This document shows, piece by piece, positions 8,226 to 29,787 of a stretch of DNA of 64,000 nucleotides (positions are counted from its first letter, which is position 1; every line of letters starts with the position of its first letter). The translations under genes and the position numbers were made by a program. Below the pieces are notes generated by a model, which did not search any database, was not told the DNA's origin, and saw only the letters and a program-made list of their open reading frames with translations. The DNA is taken from contig NZ_JABJVV010000013.1 of the NCBI RefSeq assembly GCF_013155545.1, positions 62,001 to 126,000 of the forward strand, read 5' to 3'. The DNA comes from Caenimonas soli (GTDB lineage Bacteria; Pseudomonadota; Gammaproteobacteria; Burkholderiales; Burkholderiaceae_C).

Positions 8226-9415
8226 GACTTCTCCAGGTTGCGAACGCGTTCCAGATGCTTTTCCAGATCGGATTCGGCGACGATGTCGGGCATCAGCGCG
8301 ACCGCATCCTCGAAAGTGCCATTGAGCAGGGAAAGCCTGGCGTCGCCCGCCGATATCAATGACTTGATGGTCACGAGGTGCGTGTTGGTGCTGGCCTCGC
8401 CGGCATAGTCCGTGCCGTCATCGCGCTTGCCTGGCGCCAGCAGCGGGCTGACGATGCACGCCTTCAGGGCGAGGTTCGTGCGGATGGCCGACAGGATGGG
8501 GCCGGCCAGGTGGTTGTCATTGAATCCGAAGCCGACTACGAGCAGCCCCGTGTTCGGGTCCCGCAACGCGGCCTGAAGCGCCGACATCATCTCGAGATAG
8601 GGTTGCGCGAACGCCAGTTCGTACTTGGTGCTGCGCGGATAGATCAGCAACGGGTTCACCGGTTTTGCGACTTTCCTGATCTCCGCGGACGATGCGTCCT
8701 GCTCCCAGTCAATGGAGCCGTGTAGCTTGTACAGGTGGAAGACACTCTGGATGAAGTCGCTCGAGTCGGTTTCACGGTCGCGCCTGACGATGTCGTAGCT
8801 GAAGTAAACGGCATCGAAGGTGGGAGGCTGGGTCTGGGAAAATCCATCGACGATCACGTATCGCCCCTGCCGGCCCGCTTCCTCGAAGCACCTGTCGTAG
8901 TTGGTCGTGAACAGCTTTGTCCGCGAGCGGCGGTTGGAGCGTCTGGCCGCGCGGCGCAGAAATTCCAAGTGAGCGGGAACCGTTTGGCCGGGCTTGATGA
9001 AATCCACGGCGGCATAGATCAAGGTCTCGGCTGATTGGACAAAGCCCGTCACCAGATCCTTGTCCGCCCCATCCAGGAAGTCCTGGGCGATCTTGCAACG
9101 CGAAAGCAGTGCTTCAAGGTTCGTGTCGTTGTCTGGCTGCCGTACCAGACCCAGCAAGCGGACAAAAGTGCCGGCCCCGACGTAAGGCGCGCTGACACGC
9201 TGCCAGAGTTCCCACATCGTCGGGGCTAGGGTCTTTCCCGCGGCATCCTTGAGGCAGAGCGAGGTGCCGAGTCCTGCTAGGACTACCAGGTTGTTGCAGC
9301 GAAAAACGTCAGACAGCACGTGGCGTGCTTCCGCATCCGCCGGGTCGGGTTTATCGCCAGCCGGTGGCGCGGCCTTGAGCCATTTGGTGCCCGTCGCGGA
9401 CGTCAGTATCTGCAT
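8222..9415 (-). CDS. SIR2-like NADase domain protein (defence effector)
   Basis: I place the start at ATG 9415 because AAGGAGG sits 6 nt upstream; two ATGs just before it (9433, 9436) lack a good site. The 397-residue protein shows SIR2-fold motifs: VVLAGLGTS (about 44-52, nucleotide loop), FTTNYD (169-174), LHGSIDW with the catalytic-type His (231-237) and VVGFGFNDNHL (293-303). SIR2 proteins of defence systems hydrolyse NAD+ and cause growth arrest of infected cells. It is the first gene of the SIR2-HerA-endonuclease operon and overlaps herA by 4 bp. No membrane or DNA-binding segment was seen. Confidence 0.9.
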   Translation of the reverse strand: MQILTSATGTKWLKAAPPAGDKPDPADAEARHVLSDVFRCNNLVVLAGLGTSLCLKDAAGKTLAPTMWELWQRVSAPYVGAGTFVRLLGLVRQPDNDTNLEALLSRCKIAQDFLDGADKDLVTGFVQSAETLIYAAVDFIKPGQTVPAHLEFLRRAARRSNRRSRTKLFTTNYDRCFEEAGRQGRYVIVDGFSQTQPPTFDAVYFSYDIVRRDRETDSSDFIQSVFHLYKLHGSIDWEQDASSAEIRKVAKPVNPLLIYPRSTKYELAFAQPYLEMMSALQAALRDPNTGLLVVGFGFNDNHLAGPILSAIRTNLALKACIVSPLLAPGKRDDGTDYAGEASTNTHLVTIKSLISAGDARLSLLNGTFEDAVALMPDIVAESDLEKHLERVRNLEKS

Positions 9416-9589
9416 AGCCCCCTCCTTGCTCATCATTGTGCATCCGGCGGCGCCCGGGGCATTTCAACTCGTCAGGTTCGTCGCGAACCCGCCCACACCT
9501 GGGTGCCGGTGTAGGTGTACAAAACCACAGGTGACGTAGGATGTGCGGCATTCACTTCAAACGTTGCATCGCGCCGCACGCACGTCTCC

Positions 9590-11329: not shown

Positions 11330-11663
11330 GTCGTTTCGCGAGGCATTCGCCGTGCTGCAGGGGCATGCCGAAACCTTGCGCCAGCAAACTGAACCCAATA
11401 TCGATGATCTACTGGAGATCGTGGTCGAGTCCGTTGAAGCGTACAAGGTGTGCAAGACGCGTATCGATGCGGTCGAAAAAGCGCTTCAACAGGCGCTGAC
11501 GGACGTCGGCGTGGAGGGAGGCGCTCGTCAAGCGGAGGAGCCGCAGGAGCGAAACCCCGCCGCGACGGGGAGCTCCGCCCCGGAGCGTTCTGCGCGGAGC
11601 GCGCCGGCGCAGAGGCCCCCAAAGACCGGGTTCGACGACATGGATGACGACATACCGTTCTAA
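11316..11663 (+). CDS. Exonuclease VII small-subunit-like protein with SSB-type C-terminal tail
   Basis: This 115-residue protein overlaps the large-subunit gene by 14 bp and has a good ribosome site (aaGGGAGaaa). Residues ~6-60 match the helical XseB fold (SFREAFAVLQGHAETLRQ... IDDLLEIVVESVEAYKVC). Residues ~65-105 are a low-complexity, Pro/Ala/Arg-rich linker. The chain ends FDDMDDDIPF, which is essentially the conserved C-terminal tip of bacterial single-stranded DNA-binding protein (E. coli SSB ends MDFDDDIPF). That tip recruits repair and replication proteins in SSB; XseB proteins normally lack it. The tail suggests that this ExoVII binds SSB-partner proteins. Sequence facts are certain; the role is inference. 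Confidence 0.9.
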   Translation: MAENKSFREAFAVLQGHAETLRQQTEPNIDDLLEIVVESVEAYKVCKTRIDAVEKALQQALTDVGVEGGARQAEEPQERNPAATGSSAPERSARSAPAQRPPKTGFDDMDDDIPF

Positions 11664-11787: not shown

Positions 11788-12672
11788 CTAAAAGTCGGCT
11801 GGAATATGCAGACGCCAGTTGGCGTCGTAGCGCGTGTCACCCATGTTGTGCGCGATGTAGAAGTCGTACTCCCGCGGCAACATGCGGATCGAGTCCAGCA
11901 GTGAGCTCTCGATTTCTGCGCGTTGCAGGTAGAGACCGATGGCCTGGTGGTAGGGATAGGCAAAGCCCAATCGGTCCAGCGTCGTGAGCAGCTTGTCGAT
12001 CGACAGGCGATCCTTCGCAAGTTCGTAGGCCCGGGCGACCTTCAGCGGACCGCCGGCATATTCAGGCTTGACGGTGATGTCGATGAGCGTGCGCTCCAGG
12101 TTTGTCGCGCGCACCTGTGCTTCCGGCCCGCTCGCACCGGGGATCGTTGTAGTCTCGACACCCAGGTGTCCGGTAGCCGCGCCGTTGAGCAGGTAGACCT
12201 GCAGGCCTTCATGGGCGACCCAGTTGTTGGAGGTTCGGGCGGGCTTGCGAAATGCACCGTCAATGGCCTCCTGAGTGAAGGGCCCGGCTGTCATGGAGCC
12301 CGTAATGCGTTCTTCCGTGAGGTAGATGGCCTCTGGCCGGCTGCCAGCCAGGCCGTGGAGCTGCATCGCCGTGTGATGGCTGAAATGGAGATCTTTTTTC
12401 AGGCCCATCAGCACGGCTAGTAGCGGCACATCACCCCAGCCGTAGCACCAAGCCGTTCGCTGGGGAAAGGGGAAGTCGTAGACCCTGAGTTTTGAATGCT
12501 TAGCCAGAAATTCAACGAACTGATCAATCGCTGTGTTTTTGGCGAGGCGCCAGGAGCCGCGTTGCTCCGTAAGGATGTCCTGGATATCCTTCGTGCTGAA
12601 GACGTGACGTGGCAGCGCGTCGAAGTGGCGGACGATGTCTGCCTTGGCGATGTGCAACCGGGAGCGATTCAT
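11788..12672 (-). CDS. AbiEi-family antitoxin-like transcriptional regulator (orphan)
   Basis: The start is placed at ATG 12672 (MNRSRLHIAKADIV), giving 294 residues; an ATG at 12762 lies inside a palindrome and would add an unlikely leader. Residues ~10-70 are a winged-helix-like region. The rest matches type IV AbiEi antitoxins: FSHHTAMQLHGL followed by AIYLTEE, then RATNLERTLIDITVKPEYAGG and a helical C-terminus. AbiEi proteins repress their own promoter through inverted repeats and counter the nucleotidyltransferase toxin AbiEii. No AbiEii-like gene lies beside it. The palindromes upstream are candidate operators. Confidence 0.8.
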   Translation of the reverse strand: MNRSRLHIAKADIVRHFDALPRHVFSTKDIQDILTEQRGSWRLAKNTAIDQFVEFLAKHSKLRVYDFPFPQRTAWCYGWGDVPLLAVLMGLKKDLHFSHHTAMQLHGLAGSRPEAIYLTEERITGSMTAGPFTQEAIDGAFRKPARTSNNWVAHEGLQVYLLNGAATGHLGVETTTIPGASGPEAQVRATNLERTLIDITVKPEYAGGPLKVARAYELAKDRLSIDKLLTTLDRLGFAYPYHQAIGLYLQRAEIESSLLDSIRMLPREYDFYIAHNMGDTRYDANWRLHIPADF

Positions 12673-12733
12673 TTCACGCTTGGCTTGACTCTGCAGTTGT
12701 GCGTACTGGCCGAGTCGGCGGCCGCAACTATTG

Positions 12734-12761
12734 TGGTACGCGGCACATGTGCCGCGTACCA
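12734..12761. repeat. Perfect 28-bp palindrome upstream of the AbiEi-like gene
   Basis: The left arm TGGTACGCGGCACA is followed without spacer by its exact reverse complement. The centre lies about 75 bp upstream of the regulator start codon, a sensible place for an autoregulatory operator. No T-run follows, so it is not an obvious terminator. Confidence 0.8.
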
Positions 12762-12821
12762 TAGCACATCGAACTGACGCTCAGGCGCAACAAAAAGGTC
12801 AATCTTTAGTTGTAATTTAGG

Positions 12822-12980: not shown

Positions 12981-13009
12981 TTGCGCCATGGCTGGTTTGG
13001 CGCTAAAAT
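12981..13009 (+). promoter_or_regulatory. Sigma70-type promoter for a small RNA
   Basis: TTGCGC (12981-12986) and TAAAAT (13004-13009) are separated by exactly 17 nt. Transcription would start near 13015-13017, at the first base-paired arm of the candidate small RNA. No open frame of useful length follows, which favours a non-coding transcript. Confidence 0.6.
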
Positions 13010-13011
13010 GA

Positions 13012-13146
13012 CCGCAAGACGAATCCGATAGCGAGTGAAACACGGACGTGCTGCCCTAACGGGTCTTGCGGACAGCAAGGGTAACAGAGGCTCGCGAGGT
13101 TGCTGTGAGGCAACCGAGAAAAGGCGCTAAGGCGCCTTTTTCTTTT
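13012..13146 (+). ncRNA. Candidate structured small RNA, about 130 nt
   Basis: The segment lies between a good promoter and an intrinsic terminator. CCGCAAGAC (13012-13020) is complementary to GTCTTGCGG (13064-13072), enclosing about 43 nt. Downstream, GGTTGC (13098-13103) can pair with GCAACC (13110-13115); alternatively ACAGCAA (13073-13079) pairs with TTGCTGT (13100-13106), so two exclusive folds exist. The RNA ends in the hairpin at 13119-13140 plus T-rich tail. I do not recognise a family. It converges on the adjacent minus-strand hypothetical gene, with which it shares the terminator. Confidence 0.5.
13119..13145. terminator. Intrinsic terminator, probably bidirectional
   Basis: AAAAGGCGC (13119-13127), loop TAAG, GCGCCTTTT (13132-13140), then TCTTTT. 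The stem overlaps the stop codon of the minus-strand gene at 13127-13129, so it can end both that gene and the plus-strand small RNA. Confidence 0.8.
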
Positions 13147-13681
13147 GGGGCTTTGGTTTCTTTTGCTTTGGCGCGAACAGGCCGGTGATCTGGCCGGCCA
13201 GCGACCCAAAGCGCCAGGATTGGGAATTCGTCCCCACCACCAGAGGCGTCAAGTACGCGCTCTGCACAAACATCCGCAGCGCGGGTGCTTCCGGCGTACC
13301 GTCCCGCTTCAGGTCAAAGAACACCGAATACGGCTCGTGTTGCTCGGCGACCGCGATGTGGGCGACGTAGGTGTAGTTGTTGTTCTTGGCACGGTAGATC
13401 TTCCCCTTTAGCAGAGCGGCCATCACAGCCGGCAATTGCAGGCTGCATTGGAATCGGGTGACATCGAACGCCCGAAGCTCGCCCGCGTGGGTGTAGCGGT
13501 GGTGGTCCAGGTGCTTCGCGTCGTCAAAGGCCTCTGTGAAGCAATGGCTGCTGTAGCTGCCATGTAGGGGAACCGTCACGGTGCCGGCCGCGTTCAGGCT
13601 GGCCAGCAATGAAAAGGGCGCCAGGTGGCCGAAGGTGTAGACGACGCCTTCAAAATGTTTTTGCGCAAAACTCACACGCAA
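13127..13681 (-). CDS. Hypothetical protein, about 184 residues
   Basis: An in-frame TGA lies immediately upstream of the first possible start (TTG 13681; GTG at 13675 is an alternative), and neither has a clear ribosome site. The product has mixed beta/alpha character with many aromatic and His residues (VVYTFGHLAPF, LHGSYSSHCF) and a very basic tail (PKQKKPKPQKKKAP), suggesting nucleic-acid contact. No known motif was recognised. It converges on the small RNA and shares its terminator. Coding status is likely because the frame is long and the tail ends at the terminator. Confidence 0.6.
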   Translation of the reverse strand: MRVSFAQKHFEGVVYTFGHLAPFSLLASLNAAGTVTVPLHGSYSSHCFTEAFDDAKHLDHHRYTHAGELRAFDVTRFQCSLQLPAVMAALLKGKIYRAKNNNYTYVAHIAVAEQHEPYSVFFDLKRDGTPEAPALRMFVQSAYLTPLVVGTNSQSWRFGSLAGQITGLFAPKQKKPKPQKKKAP

Positions 13682-13856
13682 TCATCGCAGACCGTGTGAA
13701 GGTTCCGCGGCCGCCTCAGTCATCCATGTCCCTTGATGGCCTGAAGCTGGCTGGTCGCGATGCCCGGGGCAGCCGAATGCCGTAGCACTCAAACTACGAT
13801 TGGCAAAAGGGCGCACCGGGCCATCACGCGACGGCAGGAAGGTATGCTTGCACCGC

Positions 13857-15056
13857 ATGGAGCACGAAGATCAACAGGTAAGAGTTCATCTCGTTCACGG
13901 AACATGGGCCACCGGACTGCTCAAGCCCCGGAATGCTTGGTTTGAGCAGGGCTCGGAAACCTACGAACGCCTTCGACGTCAACTACCGCAAAGCGCTCAG
14001 ATCGAGTCGTTCTTGTGGTCTGGCCGAAACACAGTTGCTTCTCGGGCTGAGGCAGGGCAGGCATTTAGCAGACATTTGCAGCAGTCAGTGGCACGACATC
14101 CTGATAGCACGCACGTTGTCGTGGCCCATAGCCATGGCGGCACTGTCGCCGTTGAGGCTCTTTCGAATCTCGATGACCAACAGTGGCCGCGCACCAACGT
14201 GAAGGCGCTTGTCTGTCTCGCCACTCCCTTTGTCTACTTGACTAGACCCTCGCTGACCCAACATCAAACCGCCTTCCTGGCGATGACTTCATTGCTGTAC
14301 GCGGTCTATTGGTCCGCATTGCTAGCAGCTTTTCCATTTATCCCTGCGGCTCTCTCACCGGCTGGCTTTGCCGCAGTATTGGCCATCAAAGGATTGATCG
14401 CATACATGGCTGTGGTTGTATTGGCTCTCGCTGTCAGCATGAGAAGTGCCTCTCAGGTTATGCAGATGCCGCCGACCAGCGTTCCCATCTACTTGTTGCG
14501 CGCGACGCGAGACGAAGCATCTTTGTCGCTTGGCCTCATGCAGGCTTTCGGTTGGCTCTCGGCCGCGTTTGCCCGTTACAACGATGTGTCACAAGGCACC
14601 GTGCGCAGGCCACTAACGTGGGTCGCATACGCTCTTGTCTACTCGGCATGTCTTGCCGTCGGTCTGTGGTTTTCTCAACTTGTCGGCGTTCGGATGCATG
14701 CGAATTGGCCGGGCGATGTCTTGGCTGTTTTGGGCTTATTCATCTATGCTCCGGCGGCAGCTGGCCTCGTGTACTTCGCCGGATACGGGCTGCTCGCATT
14801 GGCTGTCGGCCACACGAGAATTCACACGTGGTTGACGACCGCTATGGAGGTTGACGCGGCTCCACCCAACGTGTTTTGTCAAATGAAGATTTATGCGGCA
14901 TTCAATGTCTCACCAAAGGGAGGTCTTCGCCACGGCCTCTATGAACGCGAAGATGTAGTCGAAGACATTGGGAAGATTGTGTTGAGTGTCGCGGGCTCGC
15001 ACGGAACTTCGCCTGAGCCGCTCACTGCTACTTCGCATCCAGCGCCCCGCGTCTGA
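13857..15056 (+). CDS. Membrane-anchored alpha/beta hydrolase (lipase-like)
   Basis: The start is put at ATG 13857 (MEHEDQQVRVHLVHGTW), where the fold begins, giving 399 residues. VHLVHGTW (about 9-16) is the oxyanion-type HG loop and AHSHGG (90-95) the nucleophile elbow with S92. After residue ~140 the core is interrupted by several hydrophobic segments (about 150-205, 265-290 and 297-335), so the enzyme is probably membrane-embedded. It resembles predicted lipases or esterases acting at the inner membrane. It stands alone between defence genes, so a membrane-damaging effector is possible; this is inference. Catalytic Asp and His were not pinned down. Confidence 0.7.
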   Translation: MEHEDQQVRVHLVHGTWATGLLKPRNAWFEQGSETYERLRRQLPQSAQIESFLWSGRNTVASRAEAGQAFSRHLQQSVARHPDSTHVVVAHSHGGTVAVEALSNLDDQQWPRTNVKALVCLATPFVYLTRPSLTQHQTAFLAMTSLLYAVYWSALLAAFPFIPAALSPAGFAAVLAIKGLIAYMAVVVLALAVSMRSASQVMQMPPTSVPIYLLRATRDEASLSLGLMQAFGWLSAAFARYNDVSQGTVRRPLTWVAYALVYSACLAVGLWFSQLVGVRMHANWPGDVLAVLGLFIYAPAAAGLVYFAGYGLLALAVGHTRIHTWLTTAMEVDAAPPNVFCQMKIYAAFNVSPKGGLRHGLYEREDVVEDIGKIVLSVAGSHGTSPEPLTATSHPAPRV

Positions 15057-15210
15057 TTGTCTTGATTGGCGCGTGACAGCCGTACACCTAACGCATCGCC
15101 CCGTCTTGCCACAACCTGGAGCTCGTTGAACCTAGCGTAAATTCGCGGACATCGCGTTGGCACGAATACTTGACGTTCTGCTGCAGGTTGCGTGCCACGG
15201 GTAGGGACGC

Positions 15211-16974
15211 TTAACGCTCGGTCACTTTTTGAGGGCAGATTAGGACTGCGTACTCTGTGACTGCTTTTGCCTTGTGGCGGCCCTGCGCCTTGTAGACATG
15301 ATCCATAGCGAATAGCTCGACGCCAGGCGCCGGGGATTGAAGACGCCCGATCACTTGGCTAATGCTAGCTACGCCTGTGTTTGAGTAGCTCCAAAGGCAT
15401 GACCATCCCAGGCTGAGGCATTGGTCAATCACGCGAGCGAGCAGAGATTCCACTTGATCAACGCTCCTCGTGCAAAAAGGCGACATGAATCGCCCAGCGT
15501 CACCCGGCTTGGGAATCGACGCTTTGCCGGACACCAGAGGATACTGATAGCGTACGAGTGTCTCCAACACGTGGTAGTAACGGCTGTATTCGTCTCGTGT
15601 ATACGGCGGGTCAAAATACACGCAAACTGGCCTGCCGAGAAGGCGAATCGCCGCTTCTTGGAGCGCAATTTCCCAAGGCCCTTCGATCGCCTCGATCGCA
15701 TTTGCGGCCTTTGAACTCTCTGCTCCAAGATTAGTCAATCGAACGAAAAATTCATGGGACACCGAGAGCCCCCGCTGGACCAGCATCTCGTTGGCGTGCT
15801 CGCCCAACTTACTCGGGTTTTTTGGATCGAGCTTGGGCTGAGCGAAATGACCTCCATAGGTAAACGCACAGCTACTAACGGCGCAGATCAAAGCGCCGAG
15901 CGCCCACGCTCGGTCAGTTTCGTTTTCCAGCTGATCGATCGAATATCGGAGGCTATCGATCTCGGCTGCCTGCCGAACGCCAATGAACAGGTTGCCGTAG
16001 TAGGCCGTGAACAGCAAATACGGCGCGAGACTCGGCGACTCCCTCCTGAAGGTTAGAAGACTGTCGAAAGGATTGCCGCTAACGGCCCCATCACCGGCGC
16101 GAGGGTATCCCGCAATCCAGGTAGAAAGGCTCTGCAAAGTGTCCGGAGTCAATTCGGCCGCGAGGAATCCTTGCTCCTTCTTAATCTCGGTGTGGACAAA
16201 ATCCGGAAGCGACTCATAGTGCGACCTGGCCCGCACTAGTACCTCTTGCGCCGTTTCCCGGGCCCGTTCGTGCGTCATCCCACCGCCTTGTACTACCGCA
16301 AGCCGCTGCGAAAAGCTTTGGGCGTCGGACGCGACGGTTGACCAATATCTGCTGAACGCCCCCGCTGCGGCCCCAGACCCGCACATCAAATCGACCACAG
16401 CACTTTCAGGGGGCAAGTACGCATGCAAAATTTCATTCAAGAACGGCGCGAGAGACACCTTGGAGCCCATGTAATGTGCGGAGCGTGAGAACTGGCTCAC
16501 ATGCGACCCTGCCAGATTTTCCACACGCGTCTGCGCCGTGCGTATCTGATCAAGCAAAGCTGGCGACGAGCCAACGAGATCCAGATTTCCTAGCGACATG
16601 TAGTCGGATGGTTCTGCTTTCGAGTGCCCTGGTCCTCGCGACAGGGTTTCGGACCATTTAGGCAAGAGCTGTGCAAAAACGCTCGTGGCAGCCTCTTCCT
16701 CGATTGGGCTCCTCGGGCTTGAACTAACGGTCGTGACATCGTCAAGCGCAACTATGGTTTCCGGAGCAAACAGGCTCGTAGGATGGCTGAATTGACTGAC
16801 AGGCGGCAGCGCCTTCGAAAGTAGTTGGAGACGCGCGTGTTGTCGCGCAGACACGTACAAGTCGTCGCCATCCGCAAGTGTGCAAAGCAACCCTAACGCC
16901 AACCACTTCGGCAGGTCCTCGTCATCCAGTTCGCTTATGCGGCGAATGGGTGGGCGCCCTTCATTCGCGGTCAA
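15211..16974 (-). CDS. D12-class DNA N6-adenine methyltransferase (long form)
   Basis: This 587-residue protein carries D12-class motifs: YMGSK (168-172), VVDLMCGSGAAAGAF just after (SAM-binding motif I) and FDPPYTRDEYSRYYH with catalytic DPPY at 455-458. Residues 1-150 form an N-terminal extension without recognised motifs and the C-terminus is a target-recognition-like region. D12 enzymes methylate adenine N6 in specific DNA sequences. It is the last gene of a six-gene minus-strand operon and overlaps the preceding methyltransferase gene by 4 bp. A second D12 enzyme sits near the front of the same operon with the same SRYYH signature. Confidence 0.88.
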   Translation of the reverse strand: MTANEGRPPIRRISELDDEDLPKWLALGLLCTLADGDDLYVSARQHARLQLLSKALPPVSQFSHPTSLFAPETIVALDDVTTVSSSPRSPIEEEAATSVFAQLLPKWSETLSRGPGHSKAEPSDYMSLGNLDLVGSSPALLDQIRTAQTRVENLAGSHVSQFSRSAHYMGSKVSLAPFLNEILHAYLPPESAVVDLMCGSGAAAGAFSRYWSTVASDAQSFSQRLAVVQGGGMTHERARETAQEVLVRARSHYESLPDFVHTEIKKEQGFLAAELTPDTLQSLSTWIAGYPRAGDGAVSGNPFDSLLTFRRESPSLAPYLLFTAYYGNLFIGVRQAAEIDSLRYSIDQLENETDRAWALGALICAVSSCAFTYGGHFAQPKLDPKNPSKLGEHANEMLVQRGLSVSHEFFVRLTNLGAESSKAANAIEAIEGPWEIALQEAAIRLLGRPVCVYFDPPYTRDEYSRYYHVLETLVRYQYPLVSGKASIPKPGDAGRFMSPFCTRSVDQVESLLARVIDQCLSLGWSCLWSYSNTGVASISQVIGRLQSPAPGVELFAMDHVYKAQGRHKAKAVTEYAVLICPQKVTER

Positions 16975-17726
16975 GCCAGTCTCCTAGCGAATACCAACTG
17001 GCCGTAAGGTGACGGGGCCCAGTCCAGTTGCCAATGACAGGCGCACTTGAGAAGCGAGCCTTTGAACCAATCCATCCCCCAATCCTTGTGAAAGTTGCCG
17101 GCCCAAATGCCACCCTTCTTTAGGACACGGCCGAGAGTCGCAATGTCGCTTGGAGATAGCGTCTCATAGTGCAAGACGAATGCACTGAGGATCGCGTCGA
17201 AAGAATCGTTCGGCAAGGCTTCGAGTTGCTCGGGCGTCAGAACTCCCAGCCCACGCTCTGACGCGAGAGCCCTATTGGACGACGCGAAGTCAAACCCCTT
17301 GAGATGTTGCACGAGGCGAGGAACCTCGCTTGAAAGGACTGTGCCGGGCCCACAACCGAAATCCAGAACATGCCTGGGCAAGTGCCCGGTCATGCGCGAG
17401 ATACCCTGCAGGAGAGTGTCGTAGCATGTCGCATTGACAGACTTATTGATTTCACCGTCGTAGAAATTTGAGAGCCCTGCGAACAGGGTTCGGACGTACG
17501 TTCTACGTGCAACCACATCTTCCACGACAGGCAGATAGCAAGCCTCGAACATCCGCTCAAGCTTGTGGGCATGCAGCCAAGCATCGACTTCGGCAAAGTC
17601 GGTTTCAGCTATGTCCCCTTTGTAGAGACGCGCATCCTGTTCGACCGCAAGACAGTCAAAGTTTTCCGCCTGGCTCCATCCGACGAGCACGCGAGCATCG
17701 CTTCCGACCACAATGTAGATTCGCAT
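16971..17726 (-). CDS. Class I SAM-dependent methyltransferase
   Basis: This 251-residue protein has motif I VLDFGCGPG (120-128) and a typical downstream acidic and strand pattern (FDAILSAFVLHYETLSPSDIATLGRVLKKGG) as in small-molecule or protein methyltransferases. No DPPY-type base-flipping motif is present, so it is not an obvious DNA adenine methylase. The N-terminal ~110 residues are unassigned. Its ATG shares one base with the upstream stop (TGATG) and its stop overlaps the next start, indicating tight coupling in the GGDEF-TS operon. The substrate is unknown. Confidence 0.82.
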   Translation of the reverse strand: MRIYIVVGSDARVLVGWSQAENFDCLAVEQDARLYKGDIAETDFAEVDAWLHAHKLERMFEACYLPVVEDVVARRTYVRTLFAGLSNFYDGEINKSVNATCYDTLLQGISRMTGHLPRHVLDFGCGPGTVLSSEVPRLVQHLKGFDFASSNRALASERGLGVLTPEQLEALPNDSFDAILSAFVLHYETLSPSDIATLGRVLKKGGIWAGNFHKDWGMDWFKGSLLKCACHWQLDWAPSPYGQLVFARRLA

Positions 17727-20266
17727 CAGTCGCTGGCCAAATCTACGATCCGCTTGGCAACGCGCGAATGAAAGTGATCATCTCCCAAATGAAGACTCAT
17801 GGCCATGTAGGTCAGCTCGCCGACTTGCGGCGGACGCGACTGCCCATGCGTGACTTGCGCAGCTACCAGTGAAACTAGTTCCGCGGCAAGTTGAATCGAA
17901 CCGTAGAGACTATACGGCAACCCAATGAAGGCCTCGACGGTTCGCCACACAAAGGCGAAATCGATCATGCAGCGCCCATCGTCGAGGAATCTTGGCGTGG
18001 CCCAAACTGACAACAGTCCGAGCGGCCGTGGCTCGCCACTCTCAGTGAACTCGTTCGGCACCACTAGGCACGCGCGTCGAGTCGATCTGCGAGCCGGACC
18101 AACATAGGACGCAAGATGGTTGACAAACCCTTTGAGCTGACCTTGGGCCTCTATCTTGCTTCGAATCAGGCCTGAACTGGTCTGCAAGACGGTCTGGACG
18201 TATGCGTCGAGATCGGACTTCTGGGCGTACAGATATGCGGGAATGGTATCCAACAGGGGCGTTGTTAGCTTCAACTTGAAGCCGAGCAACTCTCGCAGTT
18301 CTTGATCTGCGTCGTCCCTTGATCTTCTGACGTGATCTGATTTTCGAAGCGTATCTATGATGATTGGATATGCAAGTGCCGCCGTTTCACAGACTACGGC
18401 CTCCTCTTGACCGATCGGCTTCGAACTCGCCATTGGCCGGCGCAGCTGTACCTTGGTCACGGGGTCCATGGAGAAGGTTTTCGGGGCCGATGCTCCACGT
18501 CCGACGAAAGCCAGATGTATCTCCTTCAGTAGATCGCCATCGCTCTCAGCGACGATCACTCGCTCGGAGAGGCCTTCACCAAGCGCTTGCACGGCTTGAA
18601 TTGGCAGTCCAGCTAGCGCGGCGATTTCTTCGCGAGGCCAGGTGTCCGGCTTGCTCAGTCGCTTAAATGTCTCTGTGTTTCTTGGGTCAACACCCCAAAA
18701 AATCACCCTCGTCGTGTTTGAGCTTCGTCCAAGGGCGGCCACGATCTGCGCGACGGCGACCTGCCAAAAATCGGGTAGACCACCACCCGTTCGGGGCCTA
18801 TTGTCCACCAGCACATGCGTCTCAAAGAAATTGAGGGGCAACGGAAACCCACCTGAGGTCTTTGCAGCGTTGCTAAAGCCAACCTGGACACCTACGGCGG
18901 CTCCGAAAGTTTGCGTTTGTCCGTCACCTTTCTGAAGCGGGCCGAGTTCGATATGCGTGTCGGACGAATTGCCCGAGCCTCCCCAAATCCGTTGAGCCTT
19001 ATGAATGACAGTCACCTCGCCAGTTTGCCCGTCCCACACTATTCGGGCCGGGCTCGACGCAGTTTCGTTCTTGACACCTGGCAATGAAGCCTCGCCGTCC
19101 CTACTTGACACCGCCAAGTGGTGCGCCACCGCGAGAGCAATTGCACACCGAGGCAATTTTCCCCCTTGACCCGGCGCCTCCAGTAGGCAATGCTCGTCAA
19201 GTGCATCAGTGATTTCGATGCCGAGCCAGTCCAGACCGAGTATTTGATCTGCGAAGGGCGTGGAGACACCTTCGCCGATCGCTTGCCGTGTTCGGCTGCC
19301 AATGAAATTTAGTCGCTCATCACCGAACACATCCTGCAGCTGGCAGCGGCTGTAAGACAGACAAGCCCCCAGCTGCAAGTAGCCCTCGACGCTCGATGCT
19401 GGCTGCGGGCTTGTTGGACCGGTTAACCACTTCTCGAAGGTGACGGTTCCTCGCCGCTTTTCCCCGTGATCCCCTTTTGTGAGGGCCTCCGCGGCGTTTT
19501 TTACGGCTTGTGTGTTGTCGCATACTTCGTCCACCGATCTCCACACAACGCCTGCGGTGTACGAGACAGCAATTTCCTTCGGAGTGAAAGTCTGGCTGCC
19601 AATTGCGCTGCGCAGTTCCCATAGCGCAAAGAGAATATCGAGCCTACTCTCCGTGGGAATCACAATGACAAATTCATCTCCTCCGTCGAAAAAGGCTAGC
19701 CCCCGCGATCGCCGCGACATCTCATGCAAGCACAGGTATACGTGCCTCAAGGCTTGGTCACCATAGCCATGGTTGCCGTCATCGTTGACGTCCTTGAACT
19801 TGTCCAGGTCCAGGTAGATGAAGGCCAGATTTTCTGACCCGCCTTGGGCCGTAAGTCGCCTGACCGAGTGCGAAAAGGTGGCAAGGACTTCGTTGTGCTT
19901 CAGGAAAAGGCCGCCGTGCGAGTTGCGCCTTGAGTGACGCCATACGGCCGTCATCATCTCCAGAAGCTCAAGTCTCAGCTTTTGATGCTGCGGACTGGAA
20001 GCGGCTGCCGTGGACGCCTTGCACAACAGGAACAACGTCACGCCCCCTGCAGCGTCGATTGGATGCGACAAGACCGCATCGGCATCGTCGCCCCACAACT
20101 GCTCAACGTCGCGAATCTTGACTTTGGCGCCGAGCGCTTCCAGTTCGTTCAGTCGGGCAATTTCGCGAAGGCGCTGATCAACCTCCCACGGCGACAAAAC
20201 AAAGTCCGTTGCGTCAGTCTTGAGGCTCGAAATTGCCTCTGACGATGCTTGTTGCGTTTTCTGCAT
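17726..20266 (-). CDS. GGDEF nucleotide-cyclase domain fused to a thymidylate-synthase-like domain
   Basis: The start is put at ATG 20266 behind a purine-rich GGGGGGACAGG; a GTG at 20299 is an alternative. The 846-residue protein has a GGDEF-type palm domain: YLDLDKFKDVND with metal ligands D153/D155, HGYGDQAL, and an intact FDGGDEF (GGDEF 195-199). The RxxD inhibitory site is not conserved. A central ~300 residues are unrecognised. The C-terminus (about 640-846) resembles thymidylate synthase: FVWRTVEAFIGLPYS (to about 786), then GELTYMAMSLHLGDDHFH (to 833), matching the TS RSxDxxLGLPFN and GDxHxYxNH blocks. By hand alignment the TS nucleophilic Cys is Ser and the specificity Asn is Ser, so normal dUMP methylation is unlikely. 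Confidence 0.85.
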   Translation of the reverse strand: MQKTQQASSEAISSLKTDATDFVLSPWEVDQRLREIARLNELEALGAKVKIRDVEQLWGDDADAVLSHPIDAAGGVTLFLLCKASTAAASSPQHQKLRLELLEMMTAVWRHSRRNSHGGLFLKHNEVLATFSHSVRRLTAQGGSENLAFIYLDLDKFKDVNDDGNHGYGDQALRHVYLCLHEMSRRSRGLAFFDGGDEFVIVIPTESRLDILFALWELRSAIGSQTFTPKEIAVSYTAGVVWRSVDEVCDNTQAVKNAAEALTKGDHGEKRRGTVTFEKWLTGPTSPQPASSVEGYLQLGACLSYSRCQLQDVFGDERLNFIGSRTRQAIGEGVSTPFADQILGLDWLGIEITDALDEHCLLEAPGQGGKLPRCAIALAVAHHLAVSSRDGEASLPGVKNETASSPARIVWDGQTGEVTVIHKAQRIWGGSGNSSDTHIELGPLQKGDGQTQTFGAAVGVQVGFSNAAKTSGGFPLPLNFFETHVLVDNRPRTGGGLPDFWQVAVAQIVAALGRSSNTTRVIFWGVDPRNTETFKRLSKPDTWPREEIAALAGLPIQAVQALGEGLSERVIVAESDGDLLKEIHLAFVGRGASAPKTFSMDPVTKVQLRRPMASSKPIGQEEAVVCETAALAYPIIIDTLRKSDHVRRSRDDADQELRELLGFKLKLTTPLLDTIPAYLYAQKSDLDAYVQTVLQTSSGLIRSKIEAQGQLKGFVNHLASYVGPARRSTRRACLVVPNEFTESGEPRPLGLLSVWATPRFLDDGRCMIDFAFVWRTVEAFIGLPYSLYGSIQLAAELVSLVAAQVTHGQSRPPQVGELTYMAMSLHLGDDHFHSRVAKRIVDLASD

Positions 20267-21203
20267 TTCGCCTGTCCCCCCGGAATAGCCTTCTTGCACG
20301 TCTCACGATTTCCAGCACGTCAATTGCCGCTTCGCCTGCGCCGTGACTGGAAATGAATTTGCTTGCTCGTTGCGCTGCCGGCGATGCCCGATCAACGCAA
20401 ACGCTTATCCCTGCCCACCGCAGCAGTTCAACATCATTGTCGTTGTCCCCCATCGCGAGGACCTGGTGAGCCTGGATTCCCATGTGATCAGTCAGATACC
20501 GGAGGCCTACGGCCTTGGATGATCCAGAAGGCCGAATTTCGATGTACCTGCCACCGCTGCTTGTCGCTGAGATTCCCGGGATTTGCATGAGGAACCCCAA
20601 GGCCGACTCTCTGAGGGCAGGATCGGTGACTTCGAACAAAATCGCCACTACCTTCGCGGTATCGAGATTCAGTTGAGACAACGGCAAGACCGCCATTCCA
20701 TTGAAATCCGTCGCCGGCGCCTGATCCTTGCCCGAGAAGTGGACAGCCTCTGTCTGGGCGGCTCCGCCAATCAGCGAAGCATCGGTGTCGATTGTGTAAA
20801 CGAATAGGGCCCCATCAGCGCACGATGCTCCAATACTAAGCGTCTGCTCCACCGACGCTCGTGAAATTGCGCTGTGGGCAATCAGCGCCTGATGATCGGG
20901 GCGCATGACAACGCTGCCGTTGTAGAGAACCAGCGGTACTCGATTGAGTTCTGCCATCTGACCGAGAATTGCCCGAACCCCGGTGAGCGTGCGACCGGTG
21001 GCTAGTGTCACAGCCACTTGGCTACGAGAGACAGTGGAAAACAGGTCGGCAAGTCGCGCACCCAGAATCGGCGACTGGTGCCCGATGAGAGTTCCATCGA
21101 GATCGAATGCGATCAGCCTTACGTTGGCAAAGGTGCGCAACTCCTCTGGGTCATCCATCGCATTGGGTAATGGCCTGGGTTCACCGGTCAACGATGAAGA
21201 CAT
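20214..21203 (-). CDS. HAD-superfamily Cof-type phosphatase
   Basis: I take ATG 21203 as the start; ATG 21158 is also possible and would avoid overlap with the preceding gene. The HAD motifs are complete: FDLDGTLIG (motif I, DxD nucleophile), ATGRTL (motif II region), a conserved Lys before GLRYL, and MGDNDNDVELL (motif IV). A C2-type cap lies between motifs II and III, as in Cof/sugar- or nucleotide-phosphate phosphatases. It lies between the D12 methylase and the GGDEF-TS gene and overlaps the latter by about 53 bp. It may hydrolyse a nucleotide made or bound by its neighbours; that is inference. Confidence 0.85.
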   Translation of the reverse strand: MSSSLTGEPRPLPNAMDDPEELRTFANVRLIAFDLDGTLIGHQSPILGARLADLFSTVSRSQVAVTLATGRTLTGVRAILGQMAELNRVPLVLYNGSVVMRPDHQALIAHSAISRASVEQTLSIGASCADGALFVYTIDTDASLIGGAAQTEAVHFSGKDQAPATDFNGMAVLPLSQLNLDTAKVVAILFEVTDPALRESALGFLMQIPGISATSSGGRYIEIRPSGSSKAVGLRYLTDHMGIQAHQVLAMGDNDNDVELLRWAGISVCVDRASPAAQRASKFISSHGAGEAAIDVLEIVRRARRLFRGDRRNAENATSIVRGNFEPQD

Positions 21204-22185
21204 GATGTGTGTGGGCACGCGCACCGCTGGTGGTTCGATAGCCAAGTGCAGGAATTTTGTGTTCGGTCAGTGAGCCAAAAGCCTTCAAGGCCGGGCGTAG
21301 ACGCGCCAAGGCGATGTGGGCTCCATCGGCGTACTGTACGACAAGCCGACTCCACCGGACAGAGGCAGTCAGTTCCTCAAGGTACGGCAGTCCCATCGCT
21401 TTCCGAATGAACGGGCCTTGAACGGACTTTCGCAGAGGCTGACCACACTTGCTACTGGGGTCGATTCGGACAGCTTTCAGGCCAGCCAGGGTCTCAGGCA
21501 AGTGATAGTAGCGAGAGTAGTCCCTATTGTTGTACGGAGGGTCGAGGTACAGCAGGTCGAATTGCTTGTCTCGAAGGCAAGTCAAAGCGTCTCCTTGGAA
21601 GGCGCGACCACGATTTCCGGCAACCTCAATAGGAAGCCATTGAAATTGAAAGGGCTTGAGCGCCTTGCGATGCCAATTCTTCAGGTACGCGTAGTACGTT
21701 CCAGCCGTGTTCGCGCACTTGTCAGCGCTGTTCAGCAGAGATGCTACAGCGTACTTCCTTTCTCGCTCCGACAACCAGCCCATGCGATGCCATCTTGAGA
21801 TCGCTCCCCATGCCCCTGCGATGCGGCGCGCGTTGCTTTGAGTGAAGAACTGGCGAGTCTCGGAGTACTCGCGGACGAACCAACCTGACTGAACAGTTGC
21901 CTCACTCAGGACGTTTTCTAGCTCCAGACTTGTCGAAACGCCCAACGCCGATTTCACAGCATTGAAGCTCGGCGTGCGACTGCACTCAATTCGTGACGAC
22001 TGAAATGCGTTGGGGAAACCTAGCAAGTCGCAAGTGGACACCTCGACCCCGCGAGCGCGGAATTCCACGCCGATATTGCCCAATCCGCCGAACGCATCTG
22101 CCGCTGTACGGACCTGAACGCCTTCCAAGGCAATGCCTGCGACAAACGATGCCGTAGACGACTTGGACCCAAAGTATCTGAACAT
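21181..22185 (-). CDS. D12-class DNA N6-adenine methyltransferase
   Basis: This 334-residue protein shows RYFGSKS (3-9), the SAM-binding loop DAFGGLGNIG (30-39) and LDPPYNNRDYSRYYH with catalytic DPPY at 215-218. The length is typical of Dam/DpnM-type enzymes, unlike the 587-residue paralogue at the end of the operon. TAGGAGG lies just before the ATG. It starts 8 bp after the XRE regulator stop, so the two are co-transcribed. A solitary role or a modification role within the GGDEF-TS operon is likely; no cognate restriction enzyme is encoded next to it. Confidence 0.88.
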   Translation of the reverse strand: MFRYFGSKSSTASFVAGIALEGVQVRTAADAFGGLGNIGVEFRARGVEVSTCDLLGFPNAFQSSRIECSRTPSFNAVKSALGVSTSLELENVLSEATVQSGWFVREYSETRQFFTQSNARRIAGAWGAISRWHRMGWLSERERKYAVASLLNSADKCANTAGTYYAYLKNWHRKALKPFQFQWLPIEVAGNRGRAFQGDALTCLRDKQFDLLYLDPPYNNRDYSRYYHLPETLAGLKAVRIDPSSKCGQPLRKSVQGPFIRKAMGLPYLEELTASVRWSRLVVQYADGAHIALARLRPALKAFGSLTEHKIPALGYRTTSGARAHTHHVFIVDR

Positions 22186-22193
22186 GGAACCTC

Positions 22194-22562
22194 CTATGCA
22201 CCGTCAATCGAAGCGGCGCTCACTGCACCGCACGCGCGTATCACCGCAGCGAGCGCCCTCGCTTGCTCGTCTGAGCCGTTCCATATCGACCGAAAAGCAT
22301 TCATTACTTCGCGTTCCGCTTGCGCGTCGCGCTTCCGAAGGGGGGGCGCGCCAGGCTGGTCAGGTGGTGCGACGCCAAAATATGTACATAATTTCTGGAC
22401 ATTCGGAGATAGCTGCGTGAACTGCCCGGCAAGTATTCGAGACAGTTGTCCTTGACTCATCTCCATCGCAATTGCCACATCCTCCTGGGTTTCTTGGCGC
22501 GCCTCAGCTCGGCTTCGGAGCGCCGAGGCTAGTGTCGCCCTTTGTGCGCGGGTGAGTTTCAT
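22194..22562 (-). CDS. XRE-type helix-turn-helix regulator
   Basis: This 122-residue protein has a HTH at about residues 24-46 (ETQEDVAIAMEMSQGQLSRI) preceded by MKLTRAQRATLASALRSRAEAR. The C-terminal half is helical and probably dimerises. It is the first gene of the six-gene modification operon, 8 bp before the D12 methylase. It likely represses its own promoter and so sets expression of the operon; the dyad just upstream (22582-22593) is a candidate site. Confidence 0.82.
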   Translation of the reverse strand: MKLTRAQRATLASALRSRAEARQETQEDVAIAMEMSQGQLSRILAGQFTQLSPNVQKLCTYFGVAPPDQPGAPPLRKRDAQAEREVMNAFRSIWNGSDEQARALAAVIRACGAVSAASIDGA

Positions 22563-22581
22563 AGGTGTGAGTTTAAACTAT

Positions 22582-22593
22582 TTATGTGCATAA
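22582..22593. promoter_or_regulatory. Candidate operator upstream of the XRE gene
   Basis: TTATG-TG-CATAA is a 5-bp dyad with a 2-nt centre, about 20 bp upstream of the XRE start codon. A GTTTAAAC palindrome lies next to it at 22571-22578. The position suits an autoregulatory operator; this rests on pattern only. Confidence 0.35.
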
Positions 22594-22704
22594 GTTCAAT
22601 TGACGCCTTTCTCAATGTGTCTGGCTCCCGGGGAAGACCGTGGGACCTCCATGGGCGGCATTGGCGCCGTCCCCCTGGACAATCAGGAGGGGGTGACTAG
22701 AATG

Positions 22705-22780
22705 TCCCCACCACTTTGCCGGGTCATTCATTGGCTCCGGCTTGGGACGAAAAGACCGCCCTCAGGCGGTTTTTTCTTGT
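22705..22780 (+). ncRNA. Candidate small structured RNA ending in an intrinsic terminator
   Basis: Nested stems are visible: GTCCC pairs with GGGAC, and inside it GCCGG pairs with CCGGC. They are followed by the terminator GACCGCC-CTCA-GGCGGTT plus T-run around 22758-22778. A TAGAAT lies at about 22698 with a weak CTGGAC 17 nt upstream. The segment sits between the divergent XRE gene and an istB remnant, so an insertion-sequence end is an alternative explanation. Confidence 0.35.
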
Positions 22781-22861
22781 CCGGACGGAGTTCAGGGAAG
22801 GCGCGCTGTGACCAAAGAAACCAAGAAAACAGCTGTTTACATAGACGGCTACAAGTCGAAG

Positions 22862-23160
22862 CGATCAAGCTTGCCACTCTTGGGCCAGGCGCAGGTTGCG
22901 CCGTGCGGTCTGCAGGCGTTGCACGAGCTCTGAGCAGCGCATGAACAGTACGCGCCGACCGACGTCGCAGCGCATGCCCGAGCCCGCTGATCAGGTGCGT
23001 CTTGCCCACCCCGGGCGGCCCGAACAGCAGCACGTTGGCTCCGCGCTCGAGCCACTCATGAGCCGTGTGGTCAGCGCCATCACCTGCGCCTTGGATACGC
23101 GCTCAGAGCCTGAGCACAAACTTTGGCCCCCGGCGCATAGGCAGCGGCGTTCATGGAAAG
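22862..23160 (-). pseudogene. istB: IS21-family istB remnant
   Basis: The minus strand reads SKAQVMAL, then in another frame EWLERGANVLLFGPPGVGKTHL and GLGHALRR, then in a third frame fragments such as ARRNLRLAQEW. This is the Walker A region of the IstB transposition helper with at least two frameshifts. No istA reading frame is nearby. The rest of the 22563-23192 gap holds only the candidate RNA described at 22705. Confidence 0.75.
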
Positions 23161-23192
23161 TGGTGCGCCCGTCTTGCCAGTAGACTGCCTGC

Positions 23193-24317
23193 ATGCCTAA
23201 GCTAGTCTTCGCGTTGCACGAGAGCGGCCGCGTGCTGCACATCGCGGATGTCGCCAGCGGCCTTGCGTGTCAGTGCACCTGCCTAGACTGTAGGGAACCC
23301 TTGGTCGCTCGCAAGGGCGAGGTGAGGGAGCATCACTTTGGGCACACCTCCGGTCAGGAGCACGACTGGGCATGGGAGACGCACCTGCACGCCTACGCCA
23401 AACAGCTGATCATGGACGCGGGCGGCTTGGCCGTGCCGCTGCATGCGACCGTCGCGGAGCACCTGGGGCTGGCTGCAGAGACAAAAGACGCGCGCCTCCA
23501 GGCCGGCGGCACGCCGATTCAGCAGGAGATCTCCCGCGGCGCGGTTCGCCCGGATCTCGTCTTGCATCTGGCCGAGCGCGATGTCGAGATCGCGCTGGAG
23601 GTGCGGGTAACGCATGGCTGCGATCAGGCTAAGCGCAACGAGTTCAAGCGCCAGCGGCTGGCGGCGCTTGAGATCGATTTGAGGCGTTTTCCACCGGAGC
23701 GATTCGACCCCAAGAAGCTGGCGGACGCGGTGCTGCTCAGGACAGAGAACAAGACCTGGTTGTGGCCACTGCCGCCGCCGCCTGCTCGCGATTGGGTGTA
23801 CCAACTCGTAGACGAACTGCCCCCTGAGGAGGCCGGGCAGCCTCTTGCGAAGCCGCAGCTGCCCAGAAAGCCGCTGCCTCCTCCTGTCAGCCTGCAGTTC
23901 CGTGTGCGTGCCTGGCGCGCGGCCGTTACCGTTTCAGTGCTGCAGGAAGGCGAAGAACACATTTGCGTCCGGGTGATGGAGATGGCGATCGGCCGCATGG
24001 CGACAACCAATGCGGAGCAGGCCGCCCCGCGCATCGCAGAACTGGTGGAATTCGTAGTTACCGGTCACAGCTCGTATGCCGAGAACCCGCGAGCAGGCAC
24101 GTGGCTCGTGCCCAGCTGGGAGGCTACAGCCGTGGCCAATGCGCTCCAAGAGGCCGCCTCGCGCTACCTCATTCACGAAAACGAGCAGCGCCAGGCACAG
24201 GGTGCGACGCTAGAAGCGGATCTGCGATACCGGCGCCAGGCTTGGCCAGGACAGCGGCCGGAGCCTTCAACGCCTGAACGCCCGCGCGACAATCCGTACT
24301 CGCGTCGGCGAGGCTGA
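23193..24317 (+). CDS. CoiA-like competence/nuclease family protein
   Basis: This 374-residue protein has an N-terminal zinc-binding module, ACQCTCLDCREPLVARKGEVREHHFGH (Cys 26/28/30/33, His 47/48/51 region), typical of CoiA-like proteins. A nuclease-type segment follows, RPDLVLHLAERDVEIALEVR, with D121 and E136 and an Arg where ExK would have Lys. A Pro-rich linker (about 195-225) leads to a C-terminal domain of unknown role. CoiA-family proteins act on single-stranded DNA during uptake and recombination; in mobile islands their role is unclear. It is a single gene just before a divergent secreted thermonuclease. Confidence 0.78.
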   Translation: MPKLVFALHESGRVLHIADVASGLACQCTCLDCREPLVARKGEVREHHFGHTSGQEHDWAWETHLHAYAKQLIMDAGGLAVPLHATVAEHLGLAAETKDARLQAGGTPIQQEISRGAVRPDLVLHLAERDVEIALEVRVTHGCDQAKRNEFKRQRLAALEIDLRRFPPERFDPKKLADAVLLRTENKTWLWPLPPPPARDWVYQLVDELPPEEAGQPLAKPQLPRKPLPPPVSLQFRVRAWRAAVTVSVLQEGEEHICVRVMEMAIGRMATTNAEQAAPRIAELVEFVVTGHSSYAENPRAGTWLVPSWEATAVANALQEAASRYLIHENEQRQAQGATLEADLRYRRQAWPGQRPEPSTPERPRDNPYSRRRG

Positions 24318-24340
24318 AACACGACGCAGGGCGGCTTCCG

Positions 24341-24811
24341 TCAGCGGTGCCGCCATTCCCAAGGTGCTACCGGATCTTTGTCGGCCCACAACCCCGTTCG
24401 AGCAGTGCGCGCCTCAGCTTGCACCTGGTGCAGCGGGCTCGCCCGCGGCGCGTACCGGTCATAGACCCACGCCATCCCGCGGCGTACCTGCTCTGCGTTT
24501 GCGTCATGTCCGCGACATTCGACGCGCGCCACGGTGCGCCCGTAGCGGTCCTGGGCCTCGGTGTAGATGCTGGCCCACGCACCGAAGCACAGTGTCGATA
24601 GCGACATTTTGGCCCGCTGACCGAACGGTTGCGCCTTCTCAGGCGCGTCGATTTGCGCGAGACGAACCTTCAACTGGCGGAAGCTGCTCGGCTCGCCACA
24701 GCGCACGGTCAAGGTATCCCCGTCAGACACCCCCACGACCAGACAGGACTCGGAAGCTAACCCGGAGCACGCGGCAAAGGCAAGTAGGAGAACGAAGGGA
24801 AGTCTGAGCAT
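24341..24811 (-). CDS. Secreted thermonuclease (SNase-like)
   Basis: The ATG at 24811 begins a hydrophobic signal sequence (MLRLPFVLLLAFAACSGLASES), with a lipobox-like AACSG possible. The SNase fold is complete: DGDTLTVRC, VRLAQIDAPE with the catalytic Arg/Asp/Glu set, and DRYGRTVARV with the second Arg. The 156-residue length suits a periplasmic or surface nuclease that degrades DNA and RNA. A paralogue with the same motif set lies at 29324-29746 in the next element. Confidence 0.9.
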   Translation of the reverse strand: MLRLPFVLLLAFAACSGLASESCLVVGVSDGDTLTVRCGEPSSFRQLKVRLAQIDAPEKAQPFGQRAKMSLSTLCFGAWASIYTEAQDRYGRTVARVECRGHDANAEQVRRGMAWVYDRYAPRASPLHQVQAEARTARTGLWADKDPVAPWEWRHR

Positions 24812-25244
24812 CACATCTGCACTGTAACGCGGCAGTGAGGCGGATTTGCTGGCGCGTGCCCTCCCAACTTGCTGCGACTTAGCCCCGACGCACAGGTCGG
24901 GCTCGGGAGAGCTCGGCGGGTCCGGCGTGTTCGGAGACTTACTGGAGTAGCTGCGAATTCCAGCAGCCTAGCGTCGTCCGCAAGGAAAAGGAAAAATCGC
25001 CCTTCGCGACCTTGCCACCCGCCGCAGTCTGCAAGGAAGACAAGGAAGTAGCCTAGCAAAGTTGCGGCGGCCAAGGCGATCTTCGACGCGGTTAGGAAGC
25101 GCGGCTGCAGACCCGCCAATCGTCGCTCGGGTAAGCTATGACAAGGTGGCGGATTCGAGCCATTCATATCTTTTTTGGCGCCGAGGACGGGCGTGTGTCA
25201 GCGAAAGCAGCTTGCCTTGAGGCTTCGCCTGATCCGAAGGCAAA
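24812..25244. other. Gene-poor stretch before the element end
   Basis: No supportable gene was found. A minus-strand frame of 118 codons covers much of it with one hydrophobic stretch, but it has no ribosome site and no recognised family and overlaps the thermonuclease start, so it was not called. Confidence 0.4.
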
Positions 25245-29746: not shown

Positions 29747-29787
29747 TACCGCATCCCAATAGCTAAACGCCCGGCTGTCATTGCCGG

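Follow-up and report, generated by a model that had tools for sequence, protein, structure and literature searches.

The window considered here, a stretch of 64,000 nucleotides from Caenimonas soli (contig NZ_JABJVV010000013.1, positions 62,001 to 126,000; source genome of 5.64 Mb in 51 contigs), carries a six-gene operon on its minus strand, running from 22562 to 15211, in which a GGDEF domain is fused to a thymidylate synthase (TS)-like domain and accompanied by two DNA methylases. The operon begins with an XRE/HTH_31 regulator of 122 aa (22194..22562; Pfam HTH_31, E 1.7e-6), followed by D12-A, a D12-class N6-adenine DNA methyltransferase of 334 aa with an intact DPPY motif (21181..22185; PF02086, E 3.9e-10), and a HAD-IIB (Cof-type) phosphatase of 343 aa from its first start (20214..21245; Hydrolase_3, E 2.9e-35), for which ATG 21158 or 21203 are also possible starts. 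The open reading frame (ORF) of the GGDEF-TS fusion (17726..20299) encodes 857 aa if translation begins at GTG 20299 and 846 aa if it begins at ATG 20266. Downstream lie a class I S-adenosylmethionine (SAM)-dependent methyltransferase (MT) of 251 aa (16971..17726; Methyltransf_11, E 1.3e-8) and D12-B, a D12-class DNA methyltransferase of 587 aa with an N-terminal extension of about 150 aa and an intact DPPY motif (15211..16974; PF02086, E 5.6e-8). An earlier sequence-only reading had placed these six ORFs on this strand, and its family assignments are confirmed by Pfam (HTH_31, MethyltransfD12 twice, Hydrolase_3, GGDEF, Methyltransf_11). Its description of the genes as packed with overlaps or gaps of a few bases throughout holds for three junctions: counted from the first possible starts, an 8-nt gap separates XRE and D12-A, and overlaps of 1 nt and 4 nt join GGDEF-TS to MT and MT to D12-B. 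It does not extend to HAD and the fusion, whose overlap of 86 nt is still 53 nt from ATG 20266, the start used in that reading; the D12-A/HAD overlap is 65 nt, and both lengths vary with the start chosen. No RNA family reached its gathering score in window 13000-25000, no consensus promoter was found on the coding strand of 14900-23200, and terminator-like sites in the latter interval were no commoner than in shuffled sequence.

Judged by their sequences, these genes form a module that is real, rare, conserved and mobile, a new combination of known parts. When plasmid records were searched by tblastn with the full fusion, 214 matched; among the 40 best of these that were inspected, pUSDA123-1 of Bradyrhizobium japonicum USDA 123 was the sole match to the C-terminal half, and a query of that half alone found only pUSDA123-1 among 72,556 plasmid records. 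There the genes run in the order small ORF (weak HTH matches), D12, HAD, a further small ORF and IS1380, GGDEF-TS, methyltransferase and D12-B, and the copy adjoins mobC and a relaxase gene. An IS1380 transposase gene (5127-6464 of the fetched plasmid locus, L083) interrupts the GGDEF-TS gene, and D12-B is present as two overlapping ORFs. A scan of IMG/VR with an alignment of the two fusion sequences yielded one further contig, L085, of a phage or prophage, which shows the same order (D12, HAD, an 862-aa GGDEF-TS, methyltransferase, D12-B) and adjoins genes resembling those for holin, endolysin and tail proteins. As a candidate for the N-terminal piece of the fusion, the ORF upstream of the insertion sequence (IS) in Bradyrhizobium was considered and set aside, with 2 of 500 shuffles scoring as well against L085 and 375 of 500 against the window.

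Five genes (D12-A, HAD, GGDEF-TS, MT and D12-B) keep the same order in all three copies found. Identity to the window proteins, given for Bradyrhizobium and L085 respectively, is 31% and 38% for D12-A, 27% and 34% for HAD, 27% and 26% for the fusion aligned over its full length (31% and 33% in the C-terminal part), and 29% and 27% for MT; the D12-B proteins of the window and L085 share 36% overall and 40% across the catalytic part. The sequence-only reading had made recurrence of the neighborhood a test of its proposal, and the proposal passes it: five genes found again in order in two unrelated elements go beyond chance. All three copies sit on probable mobile elements, and the same set and order in three distantly related mobile elements suggests an undescribed defense or signaling system.

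The module is scarce elsewhere. Overlapping samples of 399 genomes from the order, 398 from the phylum, 299 from the family and 369 from the class held no real match outside the window's own genome. One match in a same-family genome (E 2.2e-4) was dropped as a copy, its frame lying in an apparent cysteine/cobalamin gene cluster, as read from the ORFs. Additional viral scans returned the L085 contig again or nothing, and 50,697 phage records gave three matches, in the GGDEF region, and none to the C-terminal part of the L085 fusion. A scan of genome contigs with the fusion was uninformative on the TS part, since the best 80 of 281 loci all matched between residues 63 and 317 of the query, in the region of the GGDEF domain.

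In 857-aa numbering, the fusion comprises a GGDEF domain at about residues 140-290 (19430..19882; Pfam GGDEF, E 2.8e-11, and alignment), a segment at about 486-620 with an invariant RPxxGGGLPDFW block (18440..18844; profile alignment) and a TS-like domain at about 630-857 whose C-terminal end is truncated (17729..18412; TS profile match and alignments). For a TS reference set, 30 loci were fetched, 17 of which yielded an ORF passing the motif filter. Against these 17, the three-sequence alignment of the C-terminal part gave P 0.0025, and none of 300 column shuffles was as good in either of two runs, the best shuffle of the second run coming close (29.7 against 30.4); the reversed alignment gave P 0.34. 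The PF00303 search also yielded proteins of about 500 aa that combine a weak TS match with PterinBD-DUF4346. A profile of this divergent two-domain TS, for which 22 of 24 loci were read and identical sequences removed, is collinear with 302 columns of the fusion, covering its last 370 residues or so (P 7.5e-5; 0 of 300 shuffles as good), and from about residue 518 the 486-620 segment is homologous to the N-terminal domain of the divergent enzyme. With both sets combined in one profile, the match reached a probability of 92 and P 6.6e-7 (0 of 300 shuffles as good); all four unrelated control alignments fell at P 0.12 to 0.86. Searched singly against 24,736 Pfam models, the Bradyrhizobium protein matched PF00303 best, with E 0.027, a score short of the curated cut-off. 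At this level of comparison, homology of the C-terminal part to the divergent two-domain TS appears well supported, and the GGDEF-TS fusion proposed earlier is upheld by the profile-profile match, though Pfam finds no TS in the window protein.

Three motifs of the TS-like domain are invariant in all copies: TRR (window residues 740-742), WRTVE (785-789) and SxH (835-837), which we take to correspond to the phosphate-binding Arg126/Arg127, Arg166 and His207 of Escherichia coli TS. The position that we take to be Asn177 is Ser in all three. Where the catalytic Cys is expected, the window has Leu or Ser, L085 Val or Ser, and Bradyrhizobium Cys or Ala, two options being given for each because a nearby gap can be placed in two ways. 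The apparent loss of the nucleophilic Cys noted in the sequence-only reading is seen in the window copy; in the Bradyrhizobium relative, a Cys lies no more than one residue from the expected site. All the proteins stop about 50 residues before the TS C-terminus. Measured against ThyA, the fusion thus appears to lack the catalytic Cys, Asn177 and a complete C-terminus. The divergent TS resembles the fusion in having a HAD gene beside it (in locus L130 by Pfam, apparently also in L128) and differs in keeping its PC (Cys) motif in all four aligned sequences, in carrying a C-terminal DUF4346 in the two scanned, in having no GGDEF domain, and in lying beside a dCTP deaminase gene (L130 by Pfam, apparently L128).

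The natural reading of these residues is that the pocket binds a nucleotide in some function other than thymidylate synthesis, and it is probably a nucleotide sensor. The earlier suggestion that a signal made by the GGDEF domain is read by the TS-like pocket and erased by the HAD enzyme is compatible with the retained phosphate-binding residues; we prefer to see in the pocket a putative sensor that gates the cyclase rather than a reader of its product. The other earlier suggestion, that the proteins make or sense a modified pyrimidine in DNA, is the weaker of the two. In its fullest form, the TS-like protein would make or load a modified pyrimidine, the HAD enzyme would dephosphorylate, the MT would decorate the base and the D12 enzymes would add N6-methyladenine, together shielding the mobile element from restriction. 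TS-superfamily enzymes do make 5-hydroxymethylcytosine in phages, according to an excerpt of PMC7824862, the placement of all three copies on probable mobile elements would suit such a role, and the Fig. 3C legend of PMC13092281 names TS, dNMP kinase and 5-hydroxymethyldeoxyuridine (5hmdU) kinase among the domains of validated systems, whether of one system not being evident from it. Against this stand the catalytic Cys missing from the window and L085 copies, the Ser at Asn177 in all three, the roughly 50 missing C-terminal residues, operons in which no gene for hypermodification, such as a kinase or glycosyltransferase, was seen, and a GGDEF fusion with no obvious role in such a pathway, so that we regard base modification as very unlikely.

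The divergent TS of about 500 aa (L128-L131 and L132-L151) is itself of some interest. Of 150 genomes sampled from the phylum, 22 gave a match to it at E below 1e-70, no viral contig gave one, and in 8 of 60 genomes it was the only PF00303 match; given the HAD and dCTP deaminase genes near it in L130 and apparently in L128, it may be the thymidylate synthase of its host organisms. The matches in L142, L143 and L150 contain one in-frame stop each, through decay or as a natural gene end, and the in-frame stop in L132 appears to be a natural gene end.

In the GGDEF domain, D164, D166, N172, D181, E209 and the signature at 206-210 (G206-F210) are present in the window protein, so that the residues usual for GTP recognition and metal binding, whose roles we assign on the assumption of PleD numbering, are in place. 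The sequence-only reading had described intact metal ligands and signature (its D153/D155 and 195-199 are D164/D166 and 206-210 here) and no RxxD inhibitory site, and both observations stand, no such site preceding the signature (RSRGLAFFD-GGDEF). The block DLDKFKDVN is identical in all three copies, each of which also retains N172 and D181, the guanine ligands; the signature reads GGDEF in the window, SGDEF in L085 and GGEEF in Bradyrhizobium. The domain thus appears to hold both the metal and the guanine ligands expected of a diguanylate cyclase. Beside it, the HAD protein is of Cof type with YidA as its nearest solved structure and has complete DxDGT, ATGR and GDNxND motifs in all three copies, and the MT resembles small-molecule methyltransferases with its SAM-binding motif kept. 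An alternative is a conflict system whose GGDEF domain would have given up cyclic di-GMP for another nucleotide, such as a hybrid dinucleotide or a SAM conjugate, with the MT-like gene taking part in the signal chemistry. The constant adjacency of the SAM-methyltransferase gene to the fusion (3/3 copies) speaks for it, as do the varied products of GGDEF-related palm polymerases (Panoptes, in the part of PMC12657218 consulted) and the SAM-AMP of type III CRISPR (likewise in part of PMC12255297). The conserved N172 and D181 favor GTP, and we consider an altered product quite unlikely.

The two methylases are of restriction-modification (R-M) type. A tblastn search with D12-B gave 12 plasmid records, six of which were fetched besides Bradyrhizobium, and seven D12-type methylases were compared. 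Restriction endonucleases are annotated in three of the six fetched regions, of the BglII/BstYI family twice and of the LlaJI family once, and the LlaJI-family region has two methylases, M1 and M2. Among the seven compared, LlaJI-family M2 is the best outside match of D12-A in all three copies (E 1.4e-17, 1.2e-23 and 9.6e-32), and D12-B of the window, of L085 and of the larger Bradyrhizobium piece is nearest to the BglII/BstYI-family methylases; LlaJI-family M1 gives significant matches too. This pairing is broken by the smaller D12-B piece of Bradyrhizobium, to which M2 (E 7.4e-6, its best match) and M1 (2.3e-5, the next) are about equally close. Because the module has two different R-M-type methylases, they may mark both strands of a non-palindromic site.

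Like type II R-M systems, the module therefore encodes DNA methyltransferases (two D12 methylases by Pfam, MTase_II by PADLOC), related to the LlaJI and BglII/BstYI families as above, and HTH genes adjoin several of the compared plasmid methylases just as one opens the operon. It differs in that no endonuclease was detected and that GGDEF-TS, HAD and the SAM methyltransferase stand in its place. No nuclease family rose above cut-off in the six window proteins (Pfam, PADLOC, NCBIfam), the XRE protein giving a chance-level RNase_HII match (E 0.14); stretches free of any family match are residues 1-140 and 300-480 of the fusion, the N-terminal 150 aa of D12-B and the N-terminal 100 aa of MT. In the other two copies, no nuclease appears by annotation (Bradyrhizobium) or among the ORFs aligned to window proteins. 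The missing nuclease, together with the kinship of D12-A and D12-B to R-M methylases, is also what one would expect of a two-methylase modification or anti-restriction cassette, in which GGDEF-TS, HAD and MT tune host physiology for the element, for example through cyclic di-GMP; GGDEF domains are among those present in the polyvalent proteins that phages and conjugative elements encode (excerpt of PMC5512222). Modification, on the other hand, does not require a TS-like fusion, and the persistence of the five-gene set in very remote hosts, with 26-40% identity, suggests one function rather than loose accessories. Such a cassette is possible, and we hold it doubtful.

Comparison with known defense systems sets the module apart. 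It shares with CBASS, Pycsar, Panoptes and type III CRISPR a nucleotide-polymerizing or -cyclizing enzyme in a defense neighborhood, and differs from them in having a GGDEF domain rather than a CD-NTase, Pycsar cyclase, mCpol or Cas10, in its lack of a recognizable effector and in its pairing with DNA methylases. CBASS, Pycsar and Panoptes each have their own cyclase and effector; the fusion and the HAD protein had no PADLOC match, PADLOC being the search by which mCpol was covered. Within the operon, PADLOC recognized the D12 proteins as MTase_II, the XRE protein weakly as HTH_VI and MTase_II, and the MT weakly as mad2 (E 6.8e-4). Excerpts of PMC13092281 report a validated anti-phage system from DefensePredictor that contains a TS domain; a HAD gene and a diadenylate cyclase are also among the components of defense systems described there. 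The TS-containing system resembles the module in placing a TS domain within anti-phage defense, and its description in these excerpts includes neither a GGDEF domain nor a D12 pair. GGDEF domains are known from polyvalent and conflict proteins (PMC5512222, PMC7159879 and PMC12657218, each in part). The sequence-only reading knew of no described system with this gene set, and neither the set nor a GGDEF-TS fusion was found described in PADLOC or by searches of the open full-text literature, a scope to which subscription journals and preprints are external.

Other genes of defense type lie around the operon in the window. A HerA and SIR2_2 gene pair (6519-9436, minus strand; PADLOC E 2.5e-176 and 4.5e-80), which is a known defense type, lies about 6 kb away; an AbiEi-like gene at 11788-12762 (minus strand) stands without an identified second gene, and a DrmC-like PLD-domain protein is encoded at 36-1754 (plus strand). 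A primase/AAA gene lies at 33590-35569, and a phage-type integrase at 42785-44269 (minus strand), followed by fatty-acid metabolism genes, probably marks the island border. The G+C content of 56.7% in the operon, against 61.5% in the window and 64.5% in its 44.5-64 kb part, would fit acquisition, and we infer that the region is an integrative island with defense genes. The SIR2-HerA pair, the plasmid relaxase and the phage-like genes of L085 together form a context that points to defense.

Several further genes were observed. On the probable mobile island, 9515-11663 (plus strand) encodes the large subunit of Exonuclease VII, which carries DUF5710 at its N-terminus; the small ORF that follows and overlaps it may encode the small subunit. 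An ORF with an IstB-like P-loop start (22728-23033, minus strand), immediately upstream of the XRE gene, is probably an IS remnant. Two separate staphylococcal-nuclease-like genes lie at 24341-24814 and 29324-30067 (minus strand). Beside the plasmid copy, DUF2130, AAA ATPase and metallophosphoesterase genes (L083 11670-15444, minus strand) are possibly another conflict system.

We tentatively favor the reading of the whole as a mobile module that joins R-M-like self-marking of DNA to nucleotide signaling and is probably defensive. A bolder version, which we hold unlikely, is an R-M-like immune system that would mark self with its methylase pair and answer non-self with a nucleotide signal instead of cleavage, its pseudo-TS reading the pyrimidine pool and gating the GGDEF domain. 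Two-methylase restriction systems mark both strands of one non-palindromic site, and in the favored reading the D12 pair would mark such a site as self. TS is a homodimer in which each site takes its Arg pair from the partner subunit, and GGDEF enzymes are active as dimers; we therefore propose that the ligand controls the GGDEF pair. The TS-like unit would dimerize and bind a pyrimidine nucleotide across the dimer interface, as real TS does, and the paired GGDEF domains would thereby be turned on or off once infection alters the nucleotide pool. The product would be a GTP-derived cyclic dinucleotide, the HAD phosphatase would remove a breakdown product or the ligand itself, and modification of the signal or its receptor would fall to the small methyltransferase. 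Both the chemistry of methylation-marked self with a pseudo-TS-gated GGDEF domain and its role in defense are put forward as a proposal.

A number of points weigh against this reading. Only three copies were found, and one of them, that of Bradyrhizobium, may be dead, its GGDEF gene being broken by IS1380 and its D12-B split. In L085, the signature is SGDEF rather than GGDEF and D12-B has DAPY in place of DPPY, which makes the activity of that methylase uncertain. For the window and L085 copies Pfam reports no TS match, and for the window protein only GGDEF; PDB sequences searched with a profile of the C-terminal alignment gave no TS chain at E 10 or better, which at that sensitivity speaks against the homology. 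AlphaFold2 models made from two sequences had mean pLDDT values of 33.5 (full-length) and 44.6 (domain), both too poor to carry a comparison with the TS fold; with the second, low-confidence model, Foldseek gave no TS among the best 50 of 1,022 matches, which were unrelated folds. Dimerization and ligand binding of the TS-like unit are argued by analogy, and no effector gene was found in the module.

If the proposal is true, a single operon would unite epigenetic self-marking with nucleotide signaling, each of them an arm of bacterial immunity, and GGDEF domains would gain a place in defense. Thymidylate synthase, a core metabolic fold, would have been turned into a sensor, and such a TS-like sensor would directly notice phages rebuilding the thymidine pool.

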